From Verrucomicrobiales bacterium (lineage in GTDB: Bacteria; Verrucomicrobiota; Verrucomicrobiia; Limisphaerales; UBA9464), in assembly GCA_027489875.1 (NCBI GenBank), contig JAIXZE010000006.1:1-40575 (forward strand): a DNA stretch of 40,575 bases, read 5' to 3'. Below are positions 1-37,136 of this stretch, piece after piece. The position numbers were made by a program, and so were the translations under genes. Under the pieces are notes generated by a model, which worked only from the letters and a program-made list of their open reading frames with translations, had not been told where the DNA came from and ran no database searches. Position 1 is the first letter of the stretch. The number at the start of each line of letters is the position of its first letter.

Positions 1-315
1 AGGGTCGGGGCGGCGACGTCCCCGTCGCCCTCTCGCAAAGCGCCTCCTCACAGCGATGAGGACATCGCCTCCCCGTTCCAGGGTCGGGGCGGCGACGTCC
101 TCGTCGCCCTCTCCCAAAGCGCCTCCTCACGGCGATGAGGACATCGCCTCCCCATTCCAGGGTCGGGGCGGCGACGTCCCCGTCGCCCTCTCCCAAAGCG
201 CCTCCTCACGGCGATGAGGACGTCGCCTCCCCATTCTAGGGTCGGGGCGGCGACGTCCCTGTCGCCCTCTCCCAAAGTGCCTCCTCACGGCGACGAGGAC
301 GTCGCCACCCCGTTG
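1..315. repeat. 79-bp tandem array of paired palindromes (family A, four units)
   Basis: Four head-to-tail units begin at 2, 81, 160 and 239, an exact 79-bp period; the last unit diverges after about 315. Each unit holds two 18-bp hairpins: one with loop GTCCYC (12-29, 91-108, 170-187, 249-266) and one with loop GAGGAC (52-69, 131-148, 210-227, 289-306), separated by about 22 bp. The second hairpin's stem closes as GGCGAT/ATCGCC in one unit, GGCGAT/GTCGCC (T-G wobble) in the third and GGCGAC/GTCGCC in the fourth. The array starts at the window edge and may extend further left. An apparent reading frame on the minus strand here only reads through the repeat and is not a gene. Confidence 0.93.
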
Positions 316-443
316 CTTGGGGGCAGTGTCAAGGTGCGTCCATCACCCAGCCTCGACCCGCTGCAGGGTTGCCCAACCCCCGCTTCCTTGTCCCTCTCAG
401 CGTCTCTGCCCCTCTGCGCGAATCTCTACTTCATGGAAATGGC
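316..443. other. intergenic tail with no recognisable feature
   Basis: About 130 bp between the repeat array and the stop codon of the PEP-CTERM gene. It begins with a GGGGGCAGTGTCAAG-type tail that recurs at the end of other family A elements (about 17594, 35639 and, reversed, 37040). I see no convincing terminator or open frame. Confidence 0.6.
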
Positions 444-1112
444 TCAGCGCCGCCACCGCCGCCACACCCCAAACACTCCCAGCGCCAACGCTCCCACGAG
501 CACCGTCGTCGCAGGCTCCGGCACCGGCGTGATGATCAACTCCCAGGAGTCCAACCGGGCCAGACCACCCGTGGCCAGGTCTGCGGCAAACAGCGTCCAC
601 GTGCCGTTGGGATCGATCCCCGTGAAACTGTCGAAGGTCGCCACACGCGGGGTGGTATCCAACACCTCGGAAGGATCCGCGAACCGCGCATCCGGCTCCC
701 ACCGCCCGGTCAACGGCTCCAGGATGGTGTTCTCGTCCGTGCCGAGGATCGACCGGTAGTTGTGGATGTCCCCCTGCGTCCCCGTGGAGGCAAAGGTGAC
801 GTTGAACCCGTTGTCCGGCGATCCGAACGAATCCAGCGCGGTGACCCCGGGACGATTCAGGAGGACACTGAAGCCCGACCCGTGCTGCAGGGTCAGGTAC
901 AGGTCCCCGTTGTAGGCACCGGCACCCACGCCGGCGATGTTCACCCGGACCTCCAACGAGAGGATGCCGGGGGTGGTGGTGACGACAGTCCGGACATCCA
1001 CCAACCCGGTGCCGTCATTGTCGGGAATGAACCCGTTGTTCACGTTGAACAGGAACGACTGGGCCGCGAGCGGGCTGGCAGCAAGGACCAGTGCGAGGGG
1101 CAGGTATTTCAT
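444..1112 (-). CDS. exported P-domain-like protein with VPEP-CTERM sorting signal
   Basis: A 222-residue exported protein. The start chosen is the ATG at 1112, because it opens a clean signal peptide (MKYLPLALVLAAS, likely cut after LAA near residue 18); the longer frame would overlap the upstream gene. Residues about 20-195 resemble the beta-sandwich P (Homo B) domain of proprotein convertases: a GDLYLTLQH strand, an NGTWTLFAAD strand and a final DSWELIITP strand. The last 26 residues are a PEP-CTERM anchor: VPEP at about 197-200, a hydrophobic stretch and the basic tail WRRWRR. Such tails are normally processed by an exosortase, which is not in this window. It begins 23 bp after the stop of the giant gene, so the two are probably co-transcribed. 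No strong Shine-Dalgarno is visible. The catalytic part of a protease is absent, so a structural or binding role is more likely. Confidence 0.85.
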   Translation of the reverse strand: MKYLPLALVLAASPLAAQSFLFNVNNGFIPDNDGTGLVDVRTVVTTTPGILSLEVRVNIAGVGAGAYNGDLYLTLQHGSGFSVLLNRPGVTALDSFGSPDNGFNVTFASTGTQGDIHNYRSILGTDENTILEPLTGRWEPDARFADPSEVLDTTPRVATFDSFTGIDPNGTWTLFAADLATGGLARLDSWELIITPVPEPATTVLVGALALGVFGVWRRWRR

Positions 1113-1135: not shown

Positions 1136-4100
1136 TCAGGGAGCGGTGACGTCGACACTGCGATAGTACCGTGTCGCATGGCTTGCGGCATCGTTGTCGG
1201 TGAATTCGAAGAGTCCGTTGACACCCGCCGTGGCGGTGCCCAACGAAGTCCACGTCGGAGTGCCAAGATCCGGCGTGGCTTCGATGCGGTAAAGTCGGCC
1301 GGGAATGCCGGCGAATCGGATGGTCACGCGCCCCGTGAGGTCGCGATCCAGCGTCAGGACGTTGCGGCTCGGCGTCGTGTTGCCACCGATCACGTTGACC
1401 TGCACCACGCCGATCCCGAGGCCGCCACGTCCATCCGACACCTGATAGGTGAAGGAGTCCGGGGCATCGCTGCCCGTCGGCGGCGTGTACAGGATCCAGG
1501 GTCCGCTGCGGCGGACGCTGCCACCGTTGGCGGTCGGCGAGGTCACCGAGGCGAAGCGCACCGGATCGAAGTCCGGATCCGTGTCATTCGCGAGCAACTC
1601 GGAGATCGCCACCTTCAACGCTTCACCCGGCTTGCGCGAGACCGTGTCCGCACCCGCGATCGGTGAGTTGTTGCGCGCCGTCACGGTCACCAGGAACGAC
1701 GTCGAGGCGGACGCCGAACCGTCGCTCACGGTGAGCGTGATCGTGGCGAGGCCTGCCTGACCCGAGGCAGGGGTGAGGGTCAGCGTGCGTGCCGCGCCAT
1801 CACCGGAGATCGCCACGGAGGCCGACGAGATCAGGCCGGGGTTCGACGAACCCACGTTGATCGTGAGTTCGTTCAACGGCGTGTCGGAGTCGCCCACGTT
1901 GAAGGACAATCCGGTGATCGGCAGTCCCGCCGGCGTCGTCTGCGGCGCAATGCCCGAGATCGTCGGCGCGCTCGAAACGAACGCCACGGCCGTCTGGGCG
2001 TCGGGCGATGCCGGCTGGGCTTCCACATTCCCCGCCTGGTCGCGCGCCCGACTGAAGAACGCGTAGGTGCGTCCCACCGTTCCCGGATAGATGGATCCGG
2101 TCAGCGGCGTGGCGGTGAGCCAGGCCGCAAACGGTCCGCCGTCCTCGGACACGTAGATGTCGTACGAGGTCACTCCCGTGTTGTCGGATCCCGACCAACT
2201 CACGGGGATCTGCGCCGGGCTGTTCGCAGGCAGTGGCAGCACCGCGCTGACCGGTGCGACACCGTCCGGAGCCGGAGGATCCACGTAGATCAGGCGGTAG
2301 CTGCCCGTCGAGTTGTGGTCGATCAGGTGCAGCATCTGCTCGTAGATCGGACGCGCCCCGAGGCCCGGGAAGGTGCGGTCCGTCACCCAGAATTCGCGGT
2401 CGAGACCGAGTTCCTTGCCGTCCGAGCGGACGATCCGCCGCAGACGCAGCGAACCATTCGAAGGTTCCGGAATCCGGAGATAGGTCCAGCCAGCAGGCAT
2501 GGCCGCGTTGACGGTCACTTCGGTGACGCCACCGCCGGGCACACCGGACACGGAGGCCAGTTCGACCAGCGCCACGTCATTGGTGCTGCCATCGCTCAGG
2601 TACAGCGTGTCCGGCATGTTGCGCGGGTCGCCCTTGTCGTTCACGAGGAAGTCCGGCTTGCCGTCATTGAACGGTGCCCCGACCTCCACCATGCGGGTCA
2701 TCTCATGGATCGTGACGGCTTCGATGAGCGACAGCCGCGGGTCGCCAAGTTCGTCCTGATGGGCGAACGACGCGGTGTACTCACGGAAGTTGCCCTGCAG
2801 GGTCGACGTGAACAGCCAGCGGCCGATCACGATCTGACCCGGACCGACGTTGCCGAAGTTCGCGGTCAGCGACGGCGTCAGGTTCTGGCCCGCCACCTCG
2901 GTGGCGATGATCTTGAAGTCCACGAGCAGGCCGCGCTCGTTTTCGATGATCTCGGGCTGGCCCGAGATGATCCGGAAGTTACGCGCCGTGCCGTAACCTT
3001 CGTTGCGCACCAGGACGCCGAGGGTGAACGGAATCGAAGGCTCGATCGGATCGGTGAACGGATCATCCGAGAACACGTCGCGCTGGTGGAAGTATTGGAC
3101 CACCAGGTTCGGGTTCGGGAGCACCTCGATGCGGCTCGGCGCGAGCGGCACGGTGATCAGGACACCGTCCTGACGGTACCGGAGCGTGCCGCTGACGTAG
3201 TGGACGGTCGGAACCGTCGGGGCCGCATCGCTCGTCGGGACCAGGATCCACGTCGCCTTGCCCGTGGAGGACGCCCCGATCACGCCGGAGCCATCCACCG
3301 CGCTCAAGCCGGTCAGGGTCGGCGTGCGGACGCCGAAGTCGATCGTCGATTCGGAACCGTCCTCACGCTCAACACGCAGGTCGACATCGACCAGGTCGAG
3401 CGCACCCGCGGTGTTGTTCTCGACTTCGAGAGTCGCCTTGAAGGCATCGCGGGTGATGACCGCTTCCTGTTCGAGGCGGAGCTTCACACGCGCGCAGACC
3501 CCGCCGCCGTTCAGCAGGGCGTTGTTCAGGCGGTCGCGGGCATCCTTGATCGCGGAGTACTCGTCATTGAAGCCCTCGGCGATGTTCTCCTCACGCGCGG
3601 CCGCAGCCTCGGCGAGCAATCCCTGCAGGACGTCGTCCGCGATGAAGTCTTCGTTGAAGCCGTCCGGAAGATCCGTCCAGTTGGTGATGCCACCGCGGCG
3701 GTATTCCACCGTGCGGTTCCAGCGGTTCAGGAACTTCAACACGCTCTCACCCGGGACACCGGCCGGCGGCGTCAGCGCCACCAGTTGGCCGAACTCCGCC
3801 AGGTTCAGCAGGTGCTGGTCGGCGGACGCACCGCTCGACCGCTCCGCGAACGCCGCCCAGAACGCGATGTTCATTTCGTCCGTCGCCTTCGCCGCGGCCC
3901 ACGCCTCGTCGTCGAGGACATAGACCATCGGTGCCATCATCCGGCGCAACCGATCCGTCCGGGTGCGGAGTTCCGCGAGTTCCGGAACATTCGGCGGGAC
4001 GATCGGCAGCGGGTTCAACCGCAGGTAAACCTGCTCATGATCGGGTCCGACCGCCACACCTGCCGCACGGCGTGAGCCGCCGCCACCACCGCCGCCACCG

Positions 4101-7100
4101 CACTTGTCGAGGGTGTCGCGGGTGAACGGCGTATCGGTGAGCTGGCAGAGACATTGGGCGATGCCCGAACTGTTCCCGTTCACGCAGGCGCAGAGCAGAC
4201 CGCGGATGCACGAGAACTCGGACAGCCCGGGAATCTCGATGGGCGAACAGCCCGGGATCGTATTCAGGCAGTCCAACGACAACGCCCCGCCAAGCCCCTT
4301 GTCGGCGATCTTGCCGCCGCACTTCGAGAGCGCGTACATGCAGTTCAGCGCCTTGATCAGCGGGAACTTGTTCGCCAACTGGTCGATCACACACTCCGCG
4401 AGACCGATCCCCAGGTTCAGCTTGCAGGGATCGCAACCCTCGGGTGCCGAGGCCGGGGTCACCGGGATGTGGTAGGTCGGCACCGAGCAAAGGAAGCAGG
4501 GGCCACCGCCTCCGGGTCCACCGCCGGGCCCGACTTCGCCACGGAAGTCCAGGCGCGGGAAGGTGCTGCCGCCATTGCCACCGCAACCGGCACCCGCGTT
4601 GTACATGACATAGGGCACCGTGTACTTGTTGGTCTGCTCACCGCAGACAAGCTCGTAAACCGTGAACCCGGCGGTGATGCACGGGCCACCACCGGCTGCA
4701 GTTGCCGCCACGCGTCGCAGGGCACTGCCGCCACCCGGAGCCGACGCACGCCGGATCGTCATGGGGACCACCAGCGAGGTCTTGGCCGGCAGGTCGCCGA
4801 ACTCGCGGATCAACGGCTCGAAGATCCAGTCCGGATGCTCGGGCACCTGCAGGCTGGCGTTCTTCGCCGCGATCAAACCGTGGTTCGTCACCTTGAAGTT
4901 CACCTGGCCCTCGGTCCCCACGATCGACGCGAGATCCACGCTGGCCGGTTCAATGGTGACCACCGGCAGCGGCACGGCCGTCTCGAACACCGTTTCGATC
5001 ACGATCTTCGTGCGATCCTCGATCTCGGTCGGCTCGACCTTCCACGTGTAGCGCACCGCCTGACGCGCCAGGAACGCTGTCACGTTCGTCGTCCCGCCCG
5101 CCGGCACGAGATGCACCTGCTGGTAGGACGAATGCTGGTCGGCCGAAATCTCCAGCCGGTAATAATTCTCCGCCAATCCCGGCAAGGTCACGAGACCCGT
5201 CGGACCGCTGTTCGTCTCCAGCACGGACAAACCCGTGAAGGCATCCACGAGGCGGATCGCGGCGTTCGCCACGCGCGGTGCACCCTCGGCGTAGAAGGTA
5301 TACTCGTCGGTGACCTCGACCACCATCCCGCCAATCGAATCCGACAGGCAGCGGAAGGTGAACGGAACCGTCACCTGCGAATTGTCCGAACCCAGCAGCA
5401 GCGATCCGCTGTAAGGCCCGAGCGGCAGGTCCGCAGGCGGTGTCAGCAGGAGCGAGATCGTCGTCGTCTCGCCCGGGGCCAGCGACGGAAGGTCCGCCGT
5501 CGACGCACTGCTGAGCCAGGGAATCGGGGGCAGCAACAACCGCATCGGACCGGTCGCCAGCCCACCCTGGTTCGCCACTTCAAAGGCCACCGTGACCTGC
5601 GTGCCACGACGCATTCCCGTGACGATGCTTCCCGGGGTCGCCACGAGTCGCGGCCGGAGCGCATCGACCTGGATCGGCAGATCCACCAGTCCCGACACCC
5701 CCTCCTGGGTCGTGACGCGCAACCGGGCCGTTCCGCCACGAACCACGCCCACCGGCGCAGTCACCGCGTAGCCCAACATCAACCGCCCGTCACCCGGCAG
5801 CACCGTGCCCGACAGGTTCGCCGTCACGTTGAGCCCCGCCGGCTTGCTGACGACTTCCACAGCCGCCGCGTTGAGGTCGATCTCGGAAAGGTTGTCGACC
5901 GCCAACGAACCGGTCGCGGATCCGCCCTCGATGACCGAGATGGTTCCCGGGGCCGCGATGCGGAACCCGAGCAGCACGAACACATCCTGCGTCGGCGGCG
6001 CCGAGACTCCGGGATGCGCCGCGGCAATGTCGTAATGCCCGGCCTCGCCCGGCAACGGCGTGAAGTTCAACCGGAACTCACCCGCCGAATCCGTCAGGGC
6101 CGAAATCACACGCCGGGTTCCGCGCACCACCACGTGCACGTTGACCAGCACCGACGGTGCCGGTGAACCGTTGTTCAGGCGCGCCACACCGCGCATCGGG
6201 ATCACTGTTCCCGCCGGCACGACATCCACGTCCGTCGACACCGTCGCGTTGTAGGCCGGGACAATGTTGATCGGAGCCGAGATCGCCGTGTTGTTGGCTT
6301 CGTCCGTTTCCGTGACGACGCCGTTCACGTCCACCACCGCGATCAGGTAACGCGCTCCCGTTTCGCGCGGCAGCCGGATCGGCGGGTTCACCTCGAAGAA
6401 ACTCCCCGCCGGAACTTCGCCGGGGAAACTGTATTGCGAGGCGAGGACATCGCTCTCGTTGAAGGTCGTGTCGGACGACAGGAACAAACGGATCGTGAAT
6501 GGCGTCGCCGCACGCAGGCCACGATTCTCGATGCGGTACGAGCCCGTGACGAACGTGTCCGTCTCCCCGGTCGCCGGCAGCGAAACCGACGCCACCACGA
6601 GATCCGGCAGGTTGATGTCGCTCACCGTCATCTGGGCAATGCCCGGCGTGAATCCATCACGCCCCGCCGTCACGGTCACCCGCTTGGCACCGTCCGGGGT
6701 CCCGTCATCCACCGTCCCCACCGGGAAGGTCACCGAGGCCGAACCTACTGGAATCGTCACCGTCGGCGGCAACACCAGTTCGCCCGTCACATCGACGGCC
6801 AGCGCCACTTCCAGAGGCACCGACGTGTCCGTGTTGCGTCGAAGCGTTCCGATCGCGCCACCGACCACTCCTTCGGCCAGCGTCCCACGATTGAAGCTCA
6901 ACAGCAGCGTCGCGCCGTCATCGTCGGTCACGGTCAGGTCTCTCGAAACGGCATCACCTGTTGGGACCCCGCCCCACAGCAGCACCACTTGCAGCGTCAC
7001 CGGTTGGTTGCCATCGACCACGTCGTCGTTCACCGCGGCGACATTGAAGTTCACCGAAGCCTGCCCCGCCGGAATGATCACCGTCGAAGGCACCGTCGCC

Positions 7101-10100
7101 GCCGTCGTGTCCGACGACGTCAACCGGACGCTCAACGCACGATCACTGGGGAACGATCGCGTGACCGTGCCTTGCGTGGCTGCCGATCCCGCACCTTCCG
7201 GGAAGGACGCCGCGTTCACGGTCAGGGCCAGCGTCGGCAGGTCGTCATCCACCACCGTCACCTGCACAAAGGCCGCAACGTGCCCGATCGAAGTCGCGTC
7301 CACGCGGTAGGCCGTGTCCGGCTCGATCAAGGTGTCCGCCGCGCCAATCAGCGCGAAGGTCACCGAGCTCTGGCCCGCGGGAATGATCACCGACGAGGGG
7401 GCGATCAATTGGCCCGGGTTGCTGCTCACCAGGTTCACCGTCACAGGAACGGGCGTCACCGTGCCCCGGGATATCGTGGCCGAAACCGTCAGGCCTTCGG
7501 CCACCGTCGGGCTGGCCACGGTGAGGGTCAGCACGGGTTGGTCCACGTTGCGCACCGTCACCGTCGCCGAAGCAGAGGTGAACGCAGCGGCCAACGCCTG
7601 CACCGTCACCGACGCATCGTCATCGACCACGCCATCGGCCACCGGCGTGCCGTTGAATCCGACGGAACCCGCGCCGGCAGGAATGATCACTTCCACCGGA
7701 ACCGCCAATTCACCCGCGTCGGAACTGGTCAACGTCACCGGCAAGGCCGCCGTGCGCGCACCATTGCGGGTCACCGTGAAGCCAATGGCCGCACCGGTCT
7801 CCGTCGTCTGCGCCGTCGAGGCCACCAGGCGGAGCTGGGTGGGAATCACCAGCGAACCCGCGCTGATCGCGGCATTGTTCACCTCGGATTCCTCCACCAC
7901 CTGCAAGCCCACGTCGACGGTCACCACACCACGGTAGGTGCCAGCGATGCCGTCATGGGGAATGAGCACGCTGGCCGAACGTTCGACCGAGACTCCCGCG
8001 GGCAGCGGTGCCGCCACCGGAACGCTCACCTGCAACAGATCGCCGCCGATCTCACCATCAACCGACAGCGACACCGTCTCGGTCCACGGAGCCACCGCCA
8101 CCACCGCTCCGGTGTTCCGTGTGGTCCAGGTCACGTTGAACGGCACGCCCGGCGTCACCGTCGGCGGCACCACGATGTTCTCAACCACGAGATCCGGCCG
8201 CGGCGGCGGGCTCAGGAGCAGCGCCTCCGATGTCCGGGTGTTGTTGGTTTCATCCGATTCCGCCAACTGGAACGACGCATCCGTCGTGACCGCGATGCGA
8301 TGCGATCCCGCCGTCAACCCGTTCAACGGGATGTTCACCGTCTGGGAAAGGTTCACGCTCGCGCCCGGAGCCAGCGGGGCCGCCGCGCCGGCGGGCCGCA
8401 CGCCCAGGTTCGCGACCACACTGCCGCCTTCGGTCCGCAGCGTGATCTGGTCGTTCCAATTCGCCGCCGGGGCATTGCCCGCGTTGCGCACCGTCCACTG
8501 CACCAGCAGGGGCGCGCCAAAGGTCGAGACCCCCGGCACGGTCAGCACGTCCACGACGAGGTCGGGCCGAGGGAGGTTGTCGATCTGTGTCGCCGCCGAG
8601 CTTCCCACGTTGTTGCCCTCGTTCGCTTCCGGCAACTGGTTGGCCCCGTCCGAAACCACGAGGAACCGGAACAGTCCCGGTGCGACGCCGCCGATGCCGG
8701 GCAGCGCGAATGTGCCTTCCATCGGCTGCTTGGCTCCCGCCGCCAGCGGCGTGGCAAGCGCGCCCGCCGAGCCAAGATAGATGTCCCCACCGCTCAGGAC
8801 GTCATCGAGCGAAAGGTACACATAGGTCGTGACCGGCCCGTTCGCATCGACGCTGCCCGCGTTGCGCAGGGTCCACCGCACCGTGCCCGTTGACCCGAAG
8901 TAAGGCGTGGGCACCACTTCCACCGCATCGGTCACGAGATCGGGTTGCGAGATGTTGATCCGACCCGCCCCGACGGACGTGTTGTTGGCCGGGGATCCCG
9001 ATTCCTGCACCACCTCGCCTGCATCCGTCGTCACCACGAACCAGTGATCCCCGCTGACTCCCGCGGGCAGCTTCACGCTGCGGGATTGCACCACGGACTC
9101 ACCCGCCGCCAGTGGCCCGGGCACCGAGAAGGTTCCCAACACCTGATCGGAACCCGCCACGCCATCCGTGGACAGGAAGACTGTTTCGGTCCAAGGACCG
9201 ACAGCCGGGACCGAACCCAGGTTCGTCACCGTGTAATCCACCGTGATCGAGGCACCGGCCGCGCCGGCCGCGGGCCCCGCCACACCCGCCATCACGAGGT
9301 CAGGCAAGGCCACAGGCGACACGAACGCCAGGTTGTCGATGGCTGCCGTCTCCGCACCGGACCCCAGGGTCACCCGCACACGGGCGATGCCCGGGGCGCT
9401 GATGGTGACCAACTCGCGCGACCCCGCACCTGCCTGGCTCGTCCGCGTATAGATCTCCGTACCGGCGGCGTTGTAGGCCTTGGTCACCGTTCCCGGCGCT
9501 GCCGCATCAATCACGAAGAACGCGACGAACGGCGTCGTCGCCGGCGTCGTCGTCCCTGGACTCACAAAGCGGATCTCGATCTGCGAAGCCGCCGCGGGAT
9601 CGCCCAAAACACGCGTCGCCGACACCGGGACAAAGGTCGCCGGATTCGCCGAGGTGGTCACCGGATTGCCGGCGAGGGTCTCGAACACCACGCCCTCCGA
9701 CGCGTACTGCGTCGTCAGCACCGAATCAGCCGGCACTTCCTCGAAGGTGATCAACCGATCACCCAGATCCGGGGAAACATACATCCGGTTCTGGGGAACG
9801 ATTCCGCCTCCAGTGTTCGCGGCCGTCGCCCACGCAAACTCGAGGCCACTGGCCCCGATGGCATTTGCAGCAAAGAGCAATTCCACCGGGTACAACCCGG
9901 GCTCGGCAAAGCTCACGGGCATCCAGGAATAAGTGAATCCACGGTCGCCCGCCGATCCCAGCACCTGATCGCCCACCGTGAGGTAGAATCCATCGTCACT
10001 GCCCACGCCAAACTGGATGTCGATCTCCGGCGTCACCGGGAACATGTCGAGATCCGGCGTGATGCTGATGAAGAACCGATGCCGCAGGATGAAGTTCCGT

Positions 10101-13100
10101 GCGGCCAACCCCAGCACCTGCTCCGGCGGCGTCGTCGTGTTCTGGAAGAAGGTATTGAAGCTCGCTCCCACCCCAATGCTCGTCCCCGGTCTCGGGAAAT
10201 CAATGAACGGACTCAACGTCGTCCCACTCGGAGACCGGCCAGCCAGTGCCGCCGGCGTGGGCGTCGTGCCACCGCCAATGCCGTTGAACAGTTCGATCGC
10301 CACGCCGTTGCCCGGCACCGGCGGGATCGTCGTACGTTCGGCATCCGCCACAGGAACCAGGATGCCGTAGTTCTGCTGCACATCCAGAAACGCCCCGCTG
10401 CTCGGTGTCGTCCCACCCGCATCCGTAACCAGGCAGCGATACGTTGCTTCATCCGCCAACTGGACGTTCACCAACTCCAGTGTCGGATCCGTCTTTCCGT
10501 CCAGGTTGCTCCCGTTCTTTTGCCACTGGTACGTCACCGGAGCCGTCGCATTCGCGCTCACGCTGAACTGGACCGTCGAGTTCCGCAGCACGGTCACTCC
10601 GCTCGGATGCGAGGTAATCTGCGGCGGCGTCAGGATCTGGAATGTTCCCTCAAACCGATCCTCGATCGCTTCGCCCGGGGTCCCGTCGGCATCCGTGTTC
10701 ATCAGGTTGCCCACCAGATCCGCAATGGCCGGCCCAACCCGGAGGGTATAGGTCCCGTTCATCCGCTGACTCGGGAAGTTGACCGTGTACCGCGTCGCAC
10801 TCGTGCGGGAGACAGAGTTGGCTCCCACCACCGATCCATCCGGCCGCACCAATGCAAAATCTGCAGCAGCCACCGACGCCATGAGGACCGGCTCGTTGAA
10901 GTCGACCTGCACGCTGGAAACAGGCACCAGGCTCGTGCCGCCCGGCGTGAAGGAGGCCACCGTCGGTCCCACCGGATCCAACGTGACACTCGTCCTAAAT
11001 GTCCCATCGGCCGCGCTCGGCAGGAGCACGCGGACATTGTCGATCGCCCAACTCTCGTCCCCGATGCTTTGCAAGCCACGCCCACGGAACCCAAGGGCCA
11101 CCGACGAAGCCGTGTGTGGCACCGTGAAGGTCAGGTCCCGATACAGCGCATCCGGGTTCCCGGAATAGATGAAGTTCGCCCCATAGAGCGCCGGCTCCGT
11201 CAACGTGTAGCTCTGGAGCGCACGGTTCCCGTTGTTGAACGTGTATTCCCATGCCGGCGTCGCACCGCCGTCAACGAGCACTCCGAAGTAATCCGGCCCC
11301 ACGCCGCCCGCCGTGTTGCCATCCCACGTGTCGATCAGCAGGCCATCCCACGTCACCCGAACACTCTCATGCGGCGGCAGGTTCCCCAACGTCAGGGTCA
11401 CCGTCTCGTTCCCGAAACGCCCCAGAACCTGCGTTGTCGTCGTCGTCGTTGCCGTCTCGATCCGATCCCACACTCCCTCGGAGCCGCTCTCGAAATCGGT
11501 CGCGTAGTAAGGCGTGTACGCAACCGGTTTCATCACCTGACCCGCGATGCCAAGGATGTTCGGCCCCACCGTCACCTGATAGGTCCCCGCGGCAGTCACC
11601 GCCGGAAAGGACAGCCGATACCGATCCGCTGCCAGCATCGTCACCGTGAACGTCCCCGGATCCAACACGCCGCCCGGCCCCGTCACCTGGAAATCCGCAG
11701 CCCCGATCGTCGAAGCATCCACCCCCGTGCTGAAGGTGAAGTCCATCTGACTCAGCGAGGAGGTCACCGGCCCCGGCGTCACCGCCGAAACAAAGAAGTC
11801 CGCCACCACCACCGTCAACGCGATCGGTGCCGACGTCGTTGATCCCGTGGGCGAGGAGACCACACACCGATACTGCCCTTCCCGGCTCACCGCCAACGGG
11901 CTCAGACGCAGCGTGGGACTTGTCCCGCCCTGCACATCCGCCCCGGCAATCGTCTCGCCGTTGAACAACCAGCGATAGTTCAACGGTGTGAACGGCGACT
12001 CGGCCGTCACGGAAAACTCGGCCGTTCCACCCGACGGCACCACTTGGTCGGCGCTGGTGCTCGTGATCAGCGGATCCCCACCAAAGATGCGGAGCGAATA
12101 GTTTCCGATGCTGGTCGGGGCCGCCCCACCAAACACCGTCAGCGTGTACGTCCCAACGTAAGCCGCAAAGAAGGAGCGGTCCCCTCCGTCAAGATTGTCC
12201 GTCACGATCACGAAACCGTCGGGAGCCCGCAGTTCCCACCGCATGCCCAGGAACGGGAATCCCGCTGTGCCGATGCGGTCGTCGACATACATGTTCTGCG
12301 CCTTCGTCAGCTCAAACGTGAACACGTCTGCACTTCCGGGCGTTTCAATGGTGCCGGAGCCCGCGCCATGGCTGCCCGGCGCGATCACATCCCCCATCTG
12401 CAACGCAAAGGGACCGCCGTCCACCACGGGCAGGATCGAGAAGGAGTAAGGCCCATTCACCGCGCCCGGCGAAGTCTGGGATTGCACCTCCACCCGGTAC
12501 TGCCCACCCGCTGTCAGGATCCGCCGCCCCGCCGAATTGCCGTCCAGTCGATCCGAGAACAGGACCGAGCCATTGGGCTCGAACACGAACATCGTTGCCC
12601 GGCTCAGCGTGGAGCCACCGTCCTGGAAGTAGAGGAGTGTTCCCGGCTCCACCGTGAACGTGAAAGTGTCCTTTGATCCCAGCACTTCCAGGTTGCCCGC
12701 GCCTGCCGCCGGCACGCCATCGCTGACCACCGCCGGAATCGTCAACGCAAAGGGCCCCTGATCCTCGACGAACGTCAACCCGAAGGCATACGGACCCGTC
12801 AATTCGGGCCATGAGGACGACGCCAGGACACGGATCGTATACGTGCCCGTCGTCGGCAGGACGACCCGGCCCGGATCCACATTGTCCATCCACTCCGAGA
12901 TCAGGAATCCGCCGTCAGGCCTCTGCATCTGGAACAGCAACTGGTTCGAGAAGCCCTCGCGACGATCATTCACATAGATCACCTGCCCTGCCGTCCCTGC
13001 GAAGGTGTACGCGTCCCGCCCCCCCCGCGTCTCGATGTTGCCCGCTCCGATCACCGGCACATCCTGGGACACCTCGACCGGAAGGGTCAGGGCGATCGGC

Positions 13101-15238
13101 CCGTCGTCCACCACCGTAAAAACCCCAAGGGAGTAGGTGCCCATCCAGTCCGGATAACCGCCTGCTGGCCGCACCTCGATCGTCCAGGTTCCCGCTTCGA
13201 TCACGTCGCGCCGGGCTTCACCCCGGTTGTCGAAGGTATTGATGGACTGCAAGCCTCCATCCGGTCCGTAAACCCACATCTCCAGCCCAAAGGACTGCGA
13301 CCCAAGATCCGCGATGAAGAAACTCGTCCCGGCCGGCACGCTGACCTGATACCGATCGATCTGCCCCAGCGCCGAGATCCGCCCCGCCGCCGCCACCGGC
13401 ACGCCATCCGTCACCGTTTCACCGATCGCCAGCAACATCGTCGGCTCATCCACCACCGTCCGGACCACAAGCGAGTAAGAACCAAACTGATCCGAAGAAA
13501 ACGGATAGGGACGGACCACAAGGCGATAGACACCGGTCGACGGCAACCGGATCCGACCGGGATCCGTGTTGCCGAAATACGTTTGGTACAACCGGGTCCC
13601 ATCCGGTCCCTGCAGGTAGGTCTCCAGATTCCCATCATTGCCGAGATGATCGACATACAACAACTGACCCTCCACTCCCGACAGGGTGAAGACATCCTGT
13701 TCCTCGACCGAATCAATCCGTCCCGCACCCACCCCCGGCGAGTCCAACACCACCGGCACATCCAGCGTCAGCGGAAAAACCGCCTCCTCCCCCAGCAACA
13801 CTCCCAACCGATACGCACCCCTCGACCCGCCACTGTAGTCGGTCGAATGAATCACCAACCGATAGGTTCCCGTCTCGGGCAGGATCACCCGCTCCGGATC
13901 CGAGTAATCCAGATAGTTCTGGTTCAACAGGACCGTTCCGGCCGGAGCAATCAGCGTCGAACCCAGACAGCAGCCCTCGGTCATTCCGTTCTCGTCGAGC
14001 ACCAGCGCCTGCCCCGCGGTCCCTTCAAACTCATACACGTCCGCACCCCACGCCGTCTCAATCCGTCCCGAACCCGCCGGAGAATCCGGCTCGATCACAT
14101 CCCCGAGGTTGATCCCAAAGGTCTCAACCCCCGTGACCGGCCAAACAGAAATCTGATAAGTCCCGTAGCCCGTGTTGTAGAACCGCACACGGATCTGATA
14201 CTCACCGGTCTCCGGAAAGGTCCGGATGCCCAGACCCCATGCGTCTATCGAGTCTTCGAAAAGCACGGCACCCGACGGCGAAATCAGGCTCCACACAGGG
14301 CTGTCCCAGAACACACCCTCACTGGAATATCCAAAGTCCATGAACTGCGCCATCTCCCCGGCGTTCGCCGTGAACCGATAGACGTCTTCGCCTCGCGGGG
14401 CCTCGATCCGACCCATGCCAACCTCCGGACTGTCTGCGGAGATCGTTCGCTGCTCCAGCACATCGCCCAGGTCGAAGACCTCGGGCGGGGGGATGTTCCG
14501 GAAGGCAAACGCATACGAACCCGTGTACGCCTGCCACGTATCCTCCGAACGGACCTCGAAGAAGTACTCGCCATCCATCGGCAGCGTGAACTCCGAGGGA
14601 GATCCATCCAGCCACTCGTTCCAGACATTGTTCCCTTCCGGATCCCAGAGTGCGCCGTAGATCTGGCAGCAGCCCACACCCGCCTGGTCGTCAAAAATCA
14701 GGATCTGCCCCGCCGATCCCGTGAAGTAGTACCCATCTGACGTCCCCGCCGTCTCCAGCACGCCCGCCCCGAAAAACGGGGAGTTCTCAGAAATGAGCTC
14801 ATCCAACCCGATCGCGAAATACTGGCTCTCGCTCACCTGGGTGACGGAGAAAGAGTAATTTCCGATCGTCTCGGGTGCCCACGTTGCCGCCCGTACCACC
14901 AACCGGTAAATGCCCGTCGTGCTCAGCTCGATCCGCCCCGGGTCGTACCCTTCGAGCGGGTTCTGGAAGAGGACGTTCCCATCGGGGTCTTCCAGGTACC
15001 ACTCCAACGTTCCTTCCCCAGAATCCTCGCTCAGGTAGATCACCACCGGTGATCCCACCAGAAACAGGTACTCGTCCATCTCCCCGAGGGTCTCGATCCG
15101 CCCAGCGCCCACCTCCGGGCTGTCCGGGCTCACGTAGGCATCCAATGGCGGAAGGTTGAACGACTCAGCGCGCGTTGGGCTCATCCATCCCAGCACCAGC
15201 AAACACCATCCCACCATGAATTGGGTCAGATTCTTCAT
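1136..15238 (-). CDS. giant secreted modular protein (4700 aa; PPC-like, Ig-like, PA14-like, CARDB and Calx-beta-like repeats)
   Basis: An uninterrupted 4700-residue frame. The ATG at 15238 starts a signal peptide (about residues 1-24, ending SPTRA) and is preceded by GGAAGAG. Approximate layout: nine PPC-like repeats of about 110 residues (25-1060, consensus DSPEVGAGRIET then DPGRI.LP.TG.Y); Ig-like (1056-1146); two SbsA-like Ig domains (1149-1243 and 1413-1536) around a jelly-roll-like region; Ig-like (1536-1620); PA14-like (1623-1826); four CARDB domains, each starting PDLV (1976-2463); four Calx-beta-like units (2470-2870); a fifth CARDB (2876-2990); NEW3- and CnaB-like parts (3090-3400); an insert with 18 cysteines ending in a run of eight glycines (3513-3720); a helical region; FN3-like (4323-4426); cadherin-like and Tandem-95-like parts (4426-4616); and a terminal E..PDL..PTWTSLG module (4623-4700). 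It has no PEP-CTERM tail or membrane anchor. The architecture suggests an adhesin or matrix protein; no enzymatic domain is recognised. Function is inferred from architecture alone. Confidence 0.9.
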   Translation of the reverse strand: MKNLTQFMVGWCLLVLGWMSPTRAESFNLPPLDAYVSPDSPEVGAGRIETLGEMDEYLFLVGSPVVIYLSEDSGEGTLEWYLEDPDGNVLFQNPLEGYDPGRIELSTTGIYRLVVRAATWAPETIGNYSFSVTQVSESQYFAIGLDELISENSPFFGAGVLETAGTSDGYYFTGSAGQILIFDDQAGVGCCQIYGALWDPEGNNVWNEWLDGSPSEFTLPMDGEYFFEVRSEDTWQAYTGSYAFAFRNIPPPEVFDLGDVLEQRTISADSPEVGMGRIEAPRGEDVYRFTANAGEMAQFMDFGYSSEGVFWDSPVWSLISPSGAVLFEDSIDAWGLGIRTFPETGEYQIRVRFYNTGYGTYQISVWPVTGVETFGINLGDVIEPDSPAGSGRIETAWGADVYEFEGTAGQALVLDENGMTEGCCLGSTLIAPAGTVLLNQNYLDYSDPERVILPETGTYRLVIHSTDYSGGSRGAYRLGVLLGEEAVFPLTLDVPVVLDSPGVGAGRIDSVEEQDVFTLSGVEGQLLYVDHLGNDGNLETYLQGPDGTRLYQTYFGNTDPGRIRLPSTGVYRLVVRPYPFSSDQFGSYSLVVRTVVDEPTMLLAIGETVTDGVPVAAAGRISALGQIDRYQVSVPAGTSFFIADLGSQSFGLEMWVYGPDGGLQSINTFDNRGEARRDVIEAGTWTIEVRPAGGYPDWMGTYSLGVFTVVDDGPIALTLPVEVSQDVPVIGAGNIETRGGRDAYTFAGTAGQVIYVNDRREGFSNQLLFQMQRPDGGFLISEWMDNVDPGRVVLPTTGTYTIRVLASSSWPELTGPYAFGLTFVEDQGPFALTIPAVVSDGVPAAGAGNLEVLGSKDTFTFTVEPGTLLYFQDGGSTLSRATMFVFEPNGSVLFSDRLDGNSAGRRILTAGGQYRVEVQSQTSPGAVNGPYSFSILPVVDGGPFALQMGDVIAPGSHGAGSGTIETPGSADVFTFELTKAQNMYVDDRIGTAGFPFLGMRWELRAPDGFVIVTDNLDGGDRSFFAAYVGTYTLTVFGGAAPTSIGNYSLRIFGGDPLITSTSADQVVPSGGTAEFSVTAESPFTPLNYRWLFNGETIAGADVQGGTSPTLRLSPLAVSREGQYRCVVSSPTGSTTSAPIALTVVVADFFVSAVTPGPVTSSLSQMDFTFSTGVDASTIGAADFQVTGPGGVLDPGTFTVTMLAADRYRLSFPAVTAAGTYQVTVGPNILGIAGQVMKPVAYTPYYATDFESGSEGVWDRIETATTTTTTQVLGRFGNETVTLTLGNLPPHESVRVTWDGLLIDTWDGNTAGGVGPDYFGVLVDGGATPAWEYTFNNGNRALQSYTLTEPALYGANFIYSGNPDALYRDLTFTVPHTASSVALGFRGRGLQSIGDESWAIDNVRVLLPSAADGTFRTSVTLDPVGPTVASFTPGGTSLVPVSSVQVDFNEPVLMASVAAADFALVRPDGSVVGANSVSRTSATRYTVNFPSQRMNGTYTLRVGPAIADLVGNLMNTDADGTPGEAIEDRFEGTFQILTPPQITSHPSGVTVLRNSTVQFSVSANATAPVTYQWQKNGSNLDGKTDPTLELVNVQLADEATYRCLVTDAGGTTPSSGAFLDVQQNYGILVPVADAERTTIPPVPGNGVAIELFNGIGGGTTPTPAALAGRSPSGTTLSPFIDFPRPGTSIGVGASFNTFFQNTTTPPEQVLGLAARNFILRHRFFISITPDLDMFPVTPEIDIQFGVGSDDGFYLTVGDQVLGSAGDRGFTYSWMPVSFAEPGLYPVELLFAANAIGASGLEFAWATAANTGGGIVPQNRMYVSPDLGDRLITFEEVPADSVLTTQYASEGVVFETLAGNPVTTSANPATFVPVSATRVLGDPAAASQIEIRFVSPGTTTPATTPFVAFFVIDAAAPGTVTKAYNAAGTEIYTRTSQAGAGSRELVTISAPGIARVRVTLGSGAETAAIDNLAFVSPVALPDLVMAGVAGPAAGAAGASITVDYTVTNLGSVPAVGPWTETVFLSTDGVAGSDQVLGTFSVPGPLAAGESVVQSRSVKLPAGVSGDHWFVVTTDAGEVVQESGSPANNTSVGAGRINISQPDLVTDAVEVVPTPYFGSTGTVRWTLRNAGSVDANGPVTTYVYLSLDDVLSGGDIYLGSAGALATPLAAGAKQPMEGTFALPGIGGVAPGLFRFLVVSDGANQLPEANEGNNVGSSAATQIDNLPRPDLVVDVLTVPGVSTFGAPLLVQWTVRNAGNAPAANWNDQITLRTEGGSVVANLGVRPAGAAAPLAPGASVNLSQTVNIPLNGLTAGSHRIAVTTDASFQLAESDETNNTRTSEALLLSPPPRPDLVVENIVVPPTVTPGVPFNVTWTTRNTGAVVAVAPWTETVSLSVDGEIGGDLLQVSVPVAAPLPAGVSVERSASVLIPHDGIAGTYRGVVTVDVGLQVVEESEVNNAAISAGSLVIPTQLRLVASTAQTTETGAAIGFTVTRNGARTAALPVTLTSSDAGELAVPVEVIIPAGAGSVGFNGTPVADGVVDDDASVTVQALAAAFTSASATVTVRNVDQPVLTLTVASPTVAEGLTVSATISRGTVTPVPVTVNLVSSNPGQLIAPSSVIIPAGQSSVTFALIGAADTLIEPDTAYRVDATSIGHVAAFVQVTVVDDDLPTLALTVNAASFPEGAGSAATQGTVTRSFPSDRALSVRLTSSDTTAATVPSTVIIPAGQASVNFNVAAVNDDVVDGNQPVTLQVVLLWGGVPTGDAVSRDLTVTDDDGATLLLSFNRGTLAEGVVGGAIGTLRRNTDTSVPLEVALAVDVTGELVLPPTVTIPVGSASVTFPVGTVDDGTPDGAKRVTVTAGRDGFTPGIAQMTVSDINLPDLVVASVSLPATGETDTFVTGSYRIENRGLRAATPFTIRLFLSSDTTFNESDVLASQYSFPGEVPAGSFFEVNPPIRLPRETGARYLIAVVDVNGVVTETDEANNTAISAPINIVPAYNATVSTDVDVVPAGTVIPMRGVARLNNGSPAPSVLVNVHVVVRGTRRVISALTDSAGEFRLNFTPLPGEAGHYDIAAAHPGVSAPPTQDVFVLLGFRIAAPGTISVIEGGSATGSLAVDNLSEIDLNAAAVEVVSKPAGLNVTANLSGTVLPGDGRLMLGYAVTAPVGVVRGGTARLRVTTQEGVSGLVDLPIQVDALRPRLVATPGSIVTGMRRGTQVTVAFEVANQGGLATGPMRLLLPPIPWLSSASTADLPSLAPGETTTISLLLTPPADLPLGPYSGSLLLGSDNSQVTVPFTFRCLSDSIGGMVVEVTDEYTFYAEGAPRVANAAIRLVDAFTGLSVLETNSGPTGLVTLPGLAENYYRLEISADQHSSYQQVHLVPAGGTTNVTAFLARQAVRYTWKVEPTEIEDRTKIVIETVFETAVPLPVVTIEPASVDLASIVGTEGQVNFKVTNHGLIAAKNASLQVPEHPDWIFEPLIREFGDLPAKTSLVVPMTIRRASAPGGGSALRRVAATAAGGGPCITAGFTVYELVCGEQTNKYTVPYVMYNAGAGCGGNGGSTFPRLDFRGEVGPGGGPGGGGPCFLCSVPTYHIPVTPASAPEGCDPCKLNLGIGLAECVIDQLANKFPLIKALNCMYALSKCGGKIADKGLGGALSLDCLNTIPGCSPIEIPGLSEFSCIRGLLCACVNGNSSGIAQCLCQLTDTPFTRDTLDKCGGGGGGGGSRRAAGVAVGPDHEQVYLRLNPLPIVPPNVPELAELRTRTDRLRRMMAPMVYVLDDEAWAAAKATDEMNIAFWAAFAERSSGASADQHLLNLAEFGQLVALTPPAGVPGESVLKFLNRWNRTVEYRRGGITNWTDLPDGFNEDFIADDVLQGLLAEAAAAREENIAEGFNDEYSAIKDARDRLNNALLNGGGVCARVKLRLEQEAVITRDAFKATLEVENNTAGALDLVDVDLRVEREDGSESTIDFGVRTPTLTGLSAVDGSGVIGASSTGKATWILVPTSDAAPTVPTVHYVSGTLRYRQDGVLITVPLAPSRIEVLPNPNLVVQYFHQRDVFSDDPFTDPIEPSIPFTLGVLVRNEGYGTARNFRIISGQPEIIENERGLLVDFKIIATEVAGQNLTPSLTANFGNVGPGQIVIGRWLFTSTLQGNFREYTASFAHQDELGDPRLSLIEAVTIHEMTRMVEVGAPFNDGKPDFLVNDKGDPRNMPDTLYLSDGSTNDVALVELASVSGVPGGGVTEVTVNAAMPAGWTYLRIPEPSNGSLRLRRIVRSDGKELGLDREFWVTDRTFPGLGARPIYEQMLHLIDHNSTGSYRLIYVDPPAPDGVAPVSAVLPLPANSPAQIPVSWSGSDNTGVTSYDIYVSEDGGPFAAWLTATPLTGSIYPGTVGRTYAFFSRARDQAGNVEAQPASPDAQTAVAFVSSAPTISGIAPQTTPAGLPITGLSFNVGDSDTPLNELTINVGSSNPGLISSASVAISGDGAARTLTLTPASGQAGLATITLTVSDGSASASTSFLVTVTARNNSPIAGADTVSRKPGEALKVAISELLANDTDPDFDPVRFASVTSPTANGGSVRRSGPWILYTPPTGSDAPDSFTYQVSDGRGGLGIGVVQVNVIGGNTTPSRNVLTLDRDLTGRVTIRFAGIPGRLYRIEATPDLGTPTWTSLGTATAGVNGLFEFTDNDAASHATRYYRSVDVTAP

Positions 15239-15535: not shown

Positions 15536-15636
15536 ACGGATTCGGGGCGGCAATGTCCTCATCACCTTGGGAATGGCTTTCGAACGGCGACGAGGACGTC
15601 GCCACCCCGTTGCCCGCAGGGGCAGTGTCCAGAGGC
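15536..15636. repeat. family A paired-hairpin element
   Basis: It starts GGATTCGGGGCGG and carries hairpin 1 at 15549-15566 (loop GTCCTC, stem with two mismatches) and hairpin 2 at 15586-15603 (perfect GGCGAC/GTCGCC stem, loop GAGGAC), with a 19-bp spacer. It ends with the GGGGCAGTGTC tail. The same spacer occurs at 37092-37110 and, reversed, at 35581-35600. Confidence 0.85.
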
Positions 15637-16240: not shown

Positions 16241-16350
16241 ATCGGGGAGGCGACGTCCTCGTCGCCCTCTCCCAAAGCTCCCCCCACGGCGATGAGGACA
16301 TCGCCTCCCCGCTGGTGGACGGGGCGGCGACGTCCTCGTCGCCCTGCAGC
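16241..16350. repeat. family A element, one and a half tandem units
   Basis: Three perfect 18-bp hairpins lie at 16249-16266 (loop GTCCTC), 16288-16305 (GGCGAT/ATCGCC stem, loop GAGGAC) and 16326-16343 (loop GTCCTC). The first and third are 77 bp apart, and the CTCTCCCAAAGC spacer matches the array at 1-315. The element fills the gap between the convergent YlbF and mtnA genes, where the hairpins could also act as a bidirectional barrier to transcription. Confidence 0.9.
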
Positions 16351-17514: not shown

Positions 17515-17617
17515 GGGGTAGCGACGTCCCCGGCCCGTTCCACAGCCATTCCCAAGGCGATGAGGACATCACCGCCCCGAATCCTTTCCAAAAGGGGGCA
17601 GTGTCCAGATGCGCCCC
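17515..17617. repeat. family A element, degenerate left hairpin
   Basis: It lies between the divergent mtnA and ParD-like genes. The left palindrome (about 17519-17536) is eroded. The right one (17556-17573, GGCGAT/ATCACC, loop GAGGAC) has one stem mismatch. The right tail GAATCCTTTCCAAAAGGGGG followed by CAGTGTCCAGATGCG is nearly identical to that at 35624-35660 and, reversed, to 37031-37070. Confidence 0.85.
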
Positions 17618-29548: not shown

Positions 29549-29568
29549 CCCACGGCTCGCGCCGTGGG
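29549..29568. repeat. isolated perfect palindrome, possible third repeat family
   Basis: CCCACGGC, loop TCGC, GCCGTGGG: an 8-bp perfect stem inside an otherwise non-coding gap, preceded by a GGGGCTGATGATCCACCGGG segment. I recall similar CACGGC/GCCGTG palindromes in other bacterial genomes, but there is only one copy here. Confidence 0.6.
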
Positions 29569-29776
29569 CTACTGTCTGTCGGTGCTCCGCACCTGTGGAT
29601 CCGCGGAGTGGGGGCTGGCTTCAACGGGCTTGGTGCCTTCGACGGATCCCCGACAAAGCGGGATGCGGGGGTGTCGCGGCGGGAAGGAACGGGGGCGTGG
29701 GCGAATTGGAGAGCTTGCGCCGGGGTATGGGCTGGAGTAGCCACGGTCCCGTGTGCGGACGACCATAACGCAGACA

Positions 29777-35557: not shown

Positions 35558-35662
35558 GGGGTGGAGACGTCCTCGTCGCCGTTCCAAAGCCATTCCCAGT
35601 GGCGATGAGGACATCGCCGCCCCGAATCCTTTCCAAACGGGGGCAGTGTCAAGATGCGCCCC
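35558..35662. repeat. family A paired-hairpin element, full form
   Basis: Hairpin 1 at 35563-35580 (one stem mismatch, loop GTCCTC), a 20-bp spacer GTTCCAAAGCCATTCCCAGT and a perfect hairpin 2 at 35601-35618 (GGCGAT/ATCGCC, loop GAGGAC). The tail GAATCCTTTCCAAACGGGGG then CAGTGTCAAGATGCGCCCC follows. It lies between the divergent DUF1553 operon and the LytS-type kinase. Confidence 0.92.
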
Positions 35663-37030: not shown

Positions 37031-37136
37031 GGGCGCATCTTGACACTACCCCCTTTTGGAAAGGATTCGGGGCGGCGATGTCCTCATCGCCTTGGGAATG
37101 GCTTTGGAACGGCGACGAGGACGTTGTCACCCCGGG
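37031..37136. repeat. family A paired-hairpin element, reversed orientation
   Basis: The reversed tail (GGGGCGCATCTTGACACT, then CCCCCTTTTGGAAAGGATTC) leads to a perfect hairpin at 37074-37091 (GGCGAT, GTCCTC, ATCGCC), a 19-bp spacer and a second hairpin at 37111-37128 (GGCGAC, GAGGAC, GTTGTC), whose stem keeps pairing only through two G-T wobbles. It lies between the LytS-type kinase and the sigma factor. Confidence 0.92.

Follow-up and report, generated by a model that had tools for sequence, protein, structure and literature searches.

The window, the whole 40,575-nt stretch of DNA that was analyzed, is an entire contig (C352) of a 451-contig, 89%-complete, 6.2-Mb genome assembly. Its left end carries a tandem array (Table 1) which, because the window is the entire contig, is cut at the left. 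Tandem Repeats Finder returned a period of 79, 3.9 copies, 95% matches, and zero indels over positions 1 to 311, bearing out the exact 79-bp periodicity claimed in an earlier, sequence-only reading. A unit contains the 18-nt palindromic arm GGCGAYGAGGACRTCGCC twice, in inverted orientation, with about 22 nt between the two copies. The right arm reads AGCGAT..ATCGCC in unit 1 and GGCGAT..ATCGCC in unit 2 (a T-A pair in both), GGCGAT..GTCGCC in unit 3 (T-G), and GGCGAC..GTCGCC in unit 4 (C-G). The T-A, T-G, and C-G states that the same reading had reported for units 2 to 4 are thus present in the arm sequences, and the dispersal of the unit across the window, which it had also described, was found in the form of arms at five further sites between positions 15549 and 37128. 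The units folded better than their own dinucleotide shuffles (z of −3.4 to −5.6 on the plus strand and −4.1 to −5.7 on the minus strand), but the minimum-energy fold of a unit was one long hairpin uniting both arms and not two small ones. The array is adjoined by a single 4,700-aa reading frame. A search of the entire window against Rfam gave one match, to an unrelated Acido-Lenti-1 RNA (RF01687; 48.8 bits, cut-off 37), and none to the array itself.

Table 1. Features of the window and loci of the autonomous elements.
Feature	Location	Strand	Description
Tandem array	1..306	+	Four 79-bp units: left arm GGCGACGTCCYCGTCGCC, 22-nt spacer, right arm GGCGAYGAGGACRTCGCC
Final array arm with flank	289..319	+	C-side element end: C-form arm, ACCCCGTTGC tag, 13 nt to the TIR
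Right terminal inverted repeat (TIR)	320..341	-	Minus strand reads GGGCGCATCTTGACACTGCCCC
Predicted gene	444..1112	-	
Long reading frame	1136..15238	-	4,700 aa, adjoining the array
Dispersed copy	15549..15632	-	T-arm/C-arm pair 15549-15603; partial C-side TIR 15619-15632
TIR-less copy	16249..16343	+	C-arm, T-arm, C-arm; CTCTCCC-type spacer
Degenerate copy	17556..17608	+	Lone T-form arm 17556-17573; partial TIR 17595-17608
Acido-Lenti-1 RNA	29549..29594	+	Rfam RF01687
Dispersed copy	35563..35661	+	C-arm/T-arm pair 35563-35618; right TIR starting at 35640
Dispersed copy	37031..37128	-	Left TIR 37031-37052; T-arm/C-arm pair 37074-37128
Autonomous elements	L185, L186, L187, L194, L201, L204		

The arm is highly repeated in this genome. 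With at most 1 mismatch, it was matched 1,355 times (690 + 665) in the 6.2 Mb, compared to 0 matches for a reversed-pattern control. Among 50 genomes of the family, this one included, the runners-up had 39, 10, and 7 matches and the remainder had 0 to 6. Therefore, the amplification of the arm is species specific. Nearly all arms (243 of 256) took one of two matched forms, the C-form and the T-form, which differ at two variable positions, both of them CpG in the C-form.

In the first contigs sampled, isolated arm pairs were seen to have inverted copies of GGGCGCATCTTGACACTGCCCC on both sides. A sample of 1,043,614 bases (the window, L034-L053, L214-L233, and L236-L255), nonrandom in that its contigs had been picked for matches in earlier searches, contained 35 elements lying between two facing TIRs. 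Of these, 29 were 130 to 137 bp long, and the remaining six were 87, 212, 214, 289, 296, and 338 bp. The basic element of about 135 bp has the order TIR, C-form arm, 19-nt spacer, T-form arm, TIR, with TIRs of 22 to 23 bp. A target-site duplication of exactly 9 bp abutted the TIRs in 14 of 34 elements, and one of 8 bp did so in 1; abutting repeats of 5 to 7 or 10 to 12 bp were found in 0 of the 34, and in control flanks further out the best match among 238 comparisons was 6 of 9. This means that the element transposes with a 9-bp duplication. It is short, is without a transposase, and has TIRs, a duplication of constant length, and TIRs common to an autonomous element (see below), as a non-autonomous, miniature inverted-repeat transposable element (MITE) does. 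The elements of 212, 214, 289, 296, and 338 bp contained 4, 4, 6, 6, and 6 arms, respectively, compared to 2 in the basic element, and the 214-bp element had a perfect 9-bp duplication and the 212-bp element one of 8/9. Since these additional arms lie between the same TIRs, the tandem arrays amount to a MITE core expanded from within, and the sequence-only reading was right to suggest that the array had been amplified from the dispersed unit. Positions 1 to 341 of the window are thus very probably the right-hand part of such a MITE, with its core tandemly multiplied. The repeated arms would permit replication slippage or unequal recombination, multiplying the core in steps of mostly 75 to 92 bp. 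The left end of this array is probably carried by contig C357, which terminates in the same unit family beside a degenerate left TIR (5/22 mismatches by eye); the target-site duplication between C357 and the array of the window, whose own left TIR lies beyond the contig, matches at only 5/9 by eye.

The same TIRs were found in relatives. Allowing 2 mismatches, nine genomes of the genus had 373 (this genome), 9, 1, 33, 77, 22, 0, 0, and 63 copies, with 0 in the controls. The exact TIR was present in at least 76 stretches of a named genome collection, mostly titled Verrucomicrobia among the matches listed; the titles Akkermansia muciniphila and Proteobacteria among these were taken for mislabeled bins. 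The 13 elements from relatives that were read had kept the TIRs, and 11 of them had other cores; the core at L101 was the same as in this species. In folding, 12 of the 13 cores beat their shuffles (z of −2.8 to −30.6). The other, with a z of 1.2, was that of a 741-bp element (L091, 782-1522, genome G001) in which the same TIRs enclose a reading frame beside one double-hairpin module like that of this species; an 8/9 duplication flanks the element (by eye). At L087 (1501-1902, genome G004), the same TIRs enclose a 402-bp almost perfect palindrome (core z of −30.6), which is intact in the draft assembly.

Downstream of some TIR copies, a reading frame begins. Its N-terminal peptides (31 and 25 aa) had no match in Pfam or NCBIfam, and the open reading frames (ORFs) beside L134 and L171 included no complete transposase. 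A search for the 31-aa peptide across the order, however, found it in 29 of 293 genomes and led to autonomous elements, with two facing TIRs (at most 6 mismatches) 1.3 to 1.7 kb apart at 8 of the 30 loci examined. The six that were read fully are 1360 to 1380 bp long, each with two ORFs, one short and one long, that are not in the same frame. L186 has an exact 9-bp duplication and the other five have none; L185 (1380 bp; 1 mismatch in one TIR and 0 in the other) comes from a different family of the order. Relative to the short N-terminal ORF, the long transposase ORF is shifted by +1 in all six, and programmed frameshifting is possible. A −1 shift is predicted for the ISMich2 group in the available part of a survey (PMC3942029). 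By far the best model for the long ORF was NCBIfam ISKra4 (176, 170, and 153 bits against a cut-off of 205), and a match to Pfam UPF0236 also fell under that model's cut-off.

Comparison of the MITEs with the ISKra4 group shows both likeness and difference. According to the same part of that survey, the transposase superfamily makes 8- or 9-bp duplications and has 18- to 39-bp inverted repeats with a terminal cytosine (PMC3942029). The MITEs agree with the ISKra4/ISMich2/ISAzba1 group (p-MULT 4, Mutator-like) in a TIR within this range, the terminal C, and the 9-bp duplication, and their TIRs are those of 1.36- to 1.38-kb insertion sequences with an ISKra4-like transposase. They differ in that the foldback cores vary between species and are tandemly expanded, and in that the transposase scores under the ISKra4 cut-off and was not found in this genome. 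With the long ORF as the query (E ≤ 0.001), no ISKra4-like transposase was found in the 89%-complete assembly; of eight congeners, one gave two distant matches and the other 7 gave nothing. Therefore, the MITEs may be orphaned, or the transposase gene may be in the missing part of the assembly. An ISKra4-like transposase (p-MULT 4, Mutator-like DDE) would have moved the MITEs in trans.

The core also resembles a second kind of repeat. REPINs and BIMEs are described, in the portions available of three papers, as a tag plus a hairpin arranged in inverted heterodimers and tandem arrays (PMC3733652, PMC3116915, PMC8266576). As far as those portions go, the two share a tagged small hairpin, inverted heterodimers, tandem alternation of two types, and more than 1,000 mostly intergenic copies. 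The 1.04-Mb sample contained 172 inverted pairs, of which 153 were heteroform (one C-form and one T-form arm), 3 were C/C, and 0 were T/T; the rest had an arm of mixed form. A REP-like family with GTAG repeats is also reported, in the part available, from Opitutus terrae of the same phylum, the Verrucomicrobia (PMC3733652); its tag differs, and it is likened here by description and not by sequence. It is possible, though we think it unlikely, that a RAYT-type (Y1 HUH) transposase has spread the core as a REPIN/BIME mobile in its own right, and that the TIR element is merely one of the places where the core has landed. Away from the stretch ends, where 13 of 112 clusters were omitted, a recognizable TIR was lacking in 14 of 27 arrays and in 13 of 72 single pairs. 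The distribution of TIR distance is bimodal, and the TIR-less arrays end near CGGGGY...RCCCCG. Some cores may therefore have moved without TIRs, and the genome does have three Y1_Tnp genes. However, no GTAG or CGTC tag adjoins the stem, where the conserved flank is CGGGGY, and not one of the three Y1 genes is both intact and bordered by arms. Two of them lack arms in the flanks that were retrieved. The third, an IS200-like Y1 transposase gene, adjoins a truncated MITE (L032, G000:C254, about 685-775), of which the left TIR and core are fused to the 5′ end of the gene and the right part is absent. In addition, single TIR-less copies often retain MITE-like flanks, and at least one arm was found in 35 of 35 TIR elements, which means that the TIR and the core mostly travel together. 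Unlike REPINs, most single copies are enclosed in an element that has TIRs and 9-bp duplications. These duplications make the TIR element the better unit, and for that reason a plain RAYT/REPIN interpretation was dropped; within the TIR element, the core would be a REP-heterodimer (REPIN/BIME-like) cargo.

The arms of this cargo are strikingly uniform. When TIRs and length were the sole criteria for choosing elements, changes were found at 21 of 1,044 sites in the arms compared to 54 of 551 in the spacer and 155 of 1,044 in the flanks; even the TIRs, by which the elements had been selected, had 95 of 1,276. Private changes were 17 of 1,044 in the arms and 75 of 2,871 elsewhere (p of 0.07), so that the arms changed at about 60% of the rate elsewhere. 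The difference was far larger for shared variation, with 4 of 1,044 in the arms and 229 of 2,871 elsewhere (p of about 1e-26, cells treated as independent), the shared figures for the flanks being somewhat inflated because private counts omit gaps and totals include them. The outcome was the same when the arms were compared with the spacer alone (p of 8e-14). The near absence of shared variation suggests that the arms matter for spreading, and we read the constraint as one that acts on the copies that spread and not after landing. It would lie mainly in these source copies rather than in an RNA function at the landing place, and the small hairpins perhaps help copying or excision.

The arms might instead be kept palindromic by mutation, through templated quasi-palindrome correction or arm conversion, without any selection. 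A few paired stem changes are seen more than once (four loci have A-T at stem pair 4), and the right arm of unit 3 is mixed (T..G), which fits such a process. But this seems quite improbable. Two positions, always the same ones, distinguish the arms in 153 of 172 pairs, and only 3 pairs consist of two C-form arms, which means that arm-to-arm conversion is rare; private changes, moreover, are fewer in the arms than elsewhere. CpG decay at the two variable positions is not needed as an explanation either, since nearly all arms have one of the two matched forms and it is the place within the element that sets the form. Instability is to be expected of a perfect long inverted repeat and would favor arms that differ.

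Our verdict is that the array is the tandemly expanded core of a Mutator-like MITE with a REPIN-like architecture. The parts are of known kinds; what is new is their combination, together with palindromic cores that differ between species and a fixed heteroform. A literature search, with most subscription journals outside its reach, found no description of such an element. The element joins two kinds of repeat that are usually kept apart, the DDE-type MITEs with target-site duplications and the REPIN/BIME-like hairpin doublets. A more speculative reading, to which we give rather low credence, is that the ISKra4-type TIRs are a shuttle that gains interchangeable foldback cargoes by species. Here, the cargo would be a REPIN-like heterodimer that also spreads TIR-free, its arms kept different by selection so that the small hairpins are perfect and the large hairpin is imperfect. 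In the part available of a REP survey, the preference for heterodimers "has no obvious explanation" (PMC3733652). With the same two arm differences kept in 153 of 172 pairs and insertions recognizable by their duplications, its cause becomes testable.

The sequence-only reading had taken the T-A, T-G, and C-G series for a pairing-preserving path left by selection on a fold, that is, for compensatory stem changes in an RNA or single strand with paired hairpins. The strong folds of the units and the series itself fit this explanation, which we nevertheless consider very unlikely and which was ruled out as the main one. First, among 29 separate insertions, 0 pairs had changed on both sides, in the small hairpins and the long hairpin alike; covariation was at the level of shuffles, and the TIR helix had 1 pair changed on both sides compared to 1.9 in shuffles. 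Second, the 344 arms of the 172 pairs had 96 one-sided stem changes and 13 two-sided ones. The test set beforehand, whether one-sided changes are as frequent as two-sided ones, thus went against selection on the fold. The 13 exceed the 2.3 expected by independence. This excess is real but is due largely to variants shared between copies, which account for several of the 13, including A-T at stem pair 4 (four loci) and T-G at stem pair 1 (two loci, one an array). Third, single changes in the first 128 pairs left a G-T on one strand 21 times and on the other 24 times, and broke the pair 25 times, so no RNA strand was favored. Fourth, unit 4 is a different part of the element. C-form arms lie 13 to 17 nt from the TIR in 49 of 51 ends and T-form arms 20 to 23 nt in 53 of 55 (6 ends with another arm form omitted); the right arm of unit 4 is C-form with a 13-nt gap, and with its flank it scores 42.5 in alignment to the C-side end compared to 32.0 to the T-side end. 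Therefore, the supposed path compares two different element parts, and the series is mainly the step from internal T-type arms to a C-type end and not a mutational path. The lack of an Rfam match for the array also counts against a selected RNA. A general caution follows for such repeats, in that seeming compensatory change inside one array can stem from the two different arms of an element.

Least credible is a host function in place, such as a terminator or mRNA-stabilizing hairpin behind the predicted gene beside the array: the elements are indeed intergenic (2 of 35 TIR elements overlap predicted genes in DNA that is 80% coding by a crude gene model), but the gaps hosting them (tandem 17, divergent 10, and convergent 3) track intergenic length, no place is conserved, and the amplification is species specific. 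One further array (L219, about 768-1052) has C-form arms that share a two-sided change of the outer stem pair (T..G), a change also seen once at L227 (14762).
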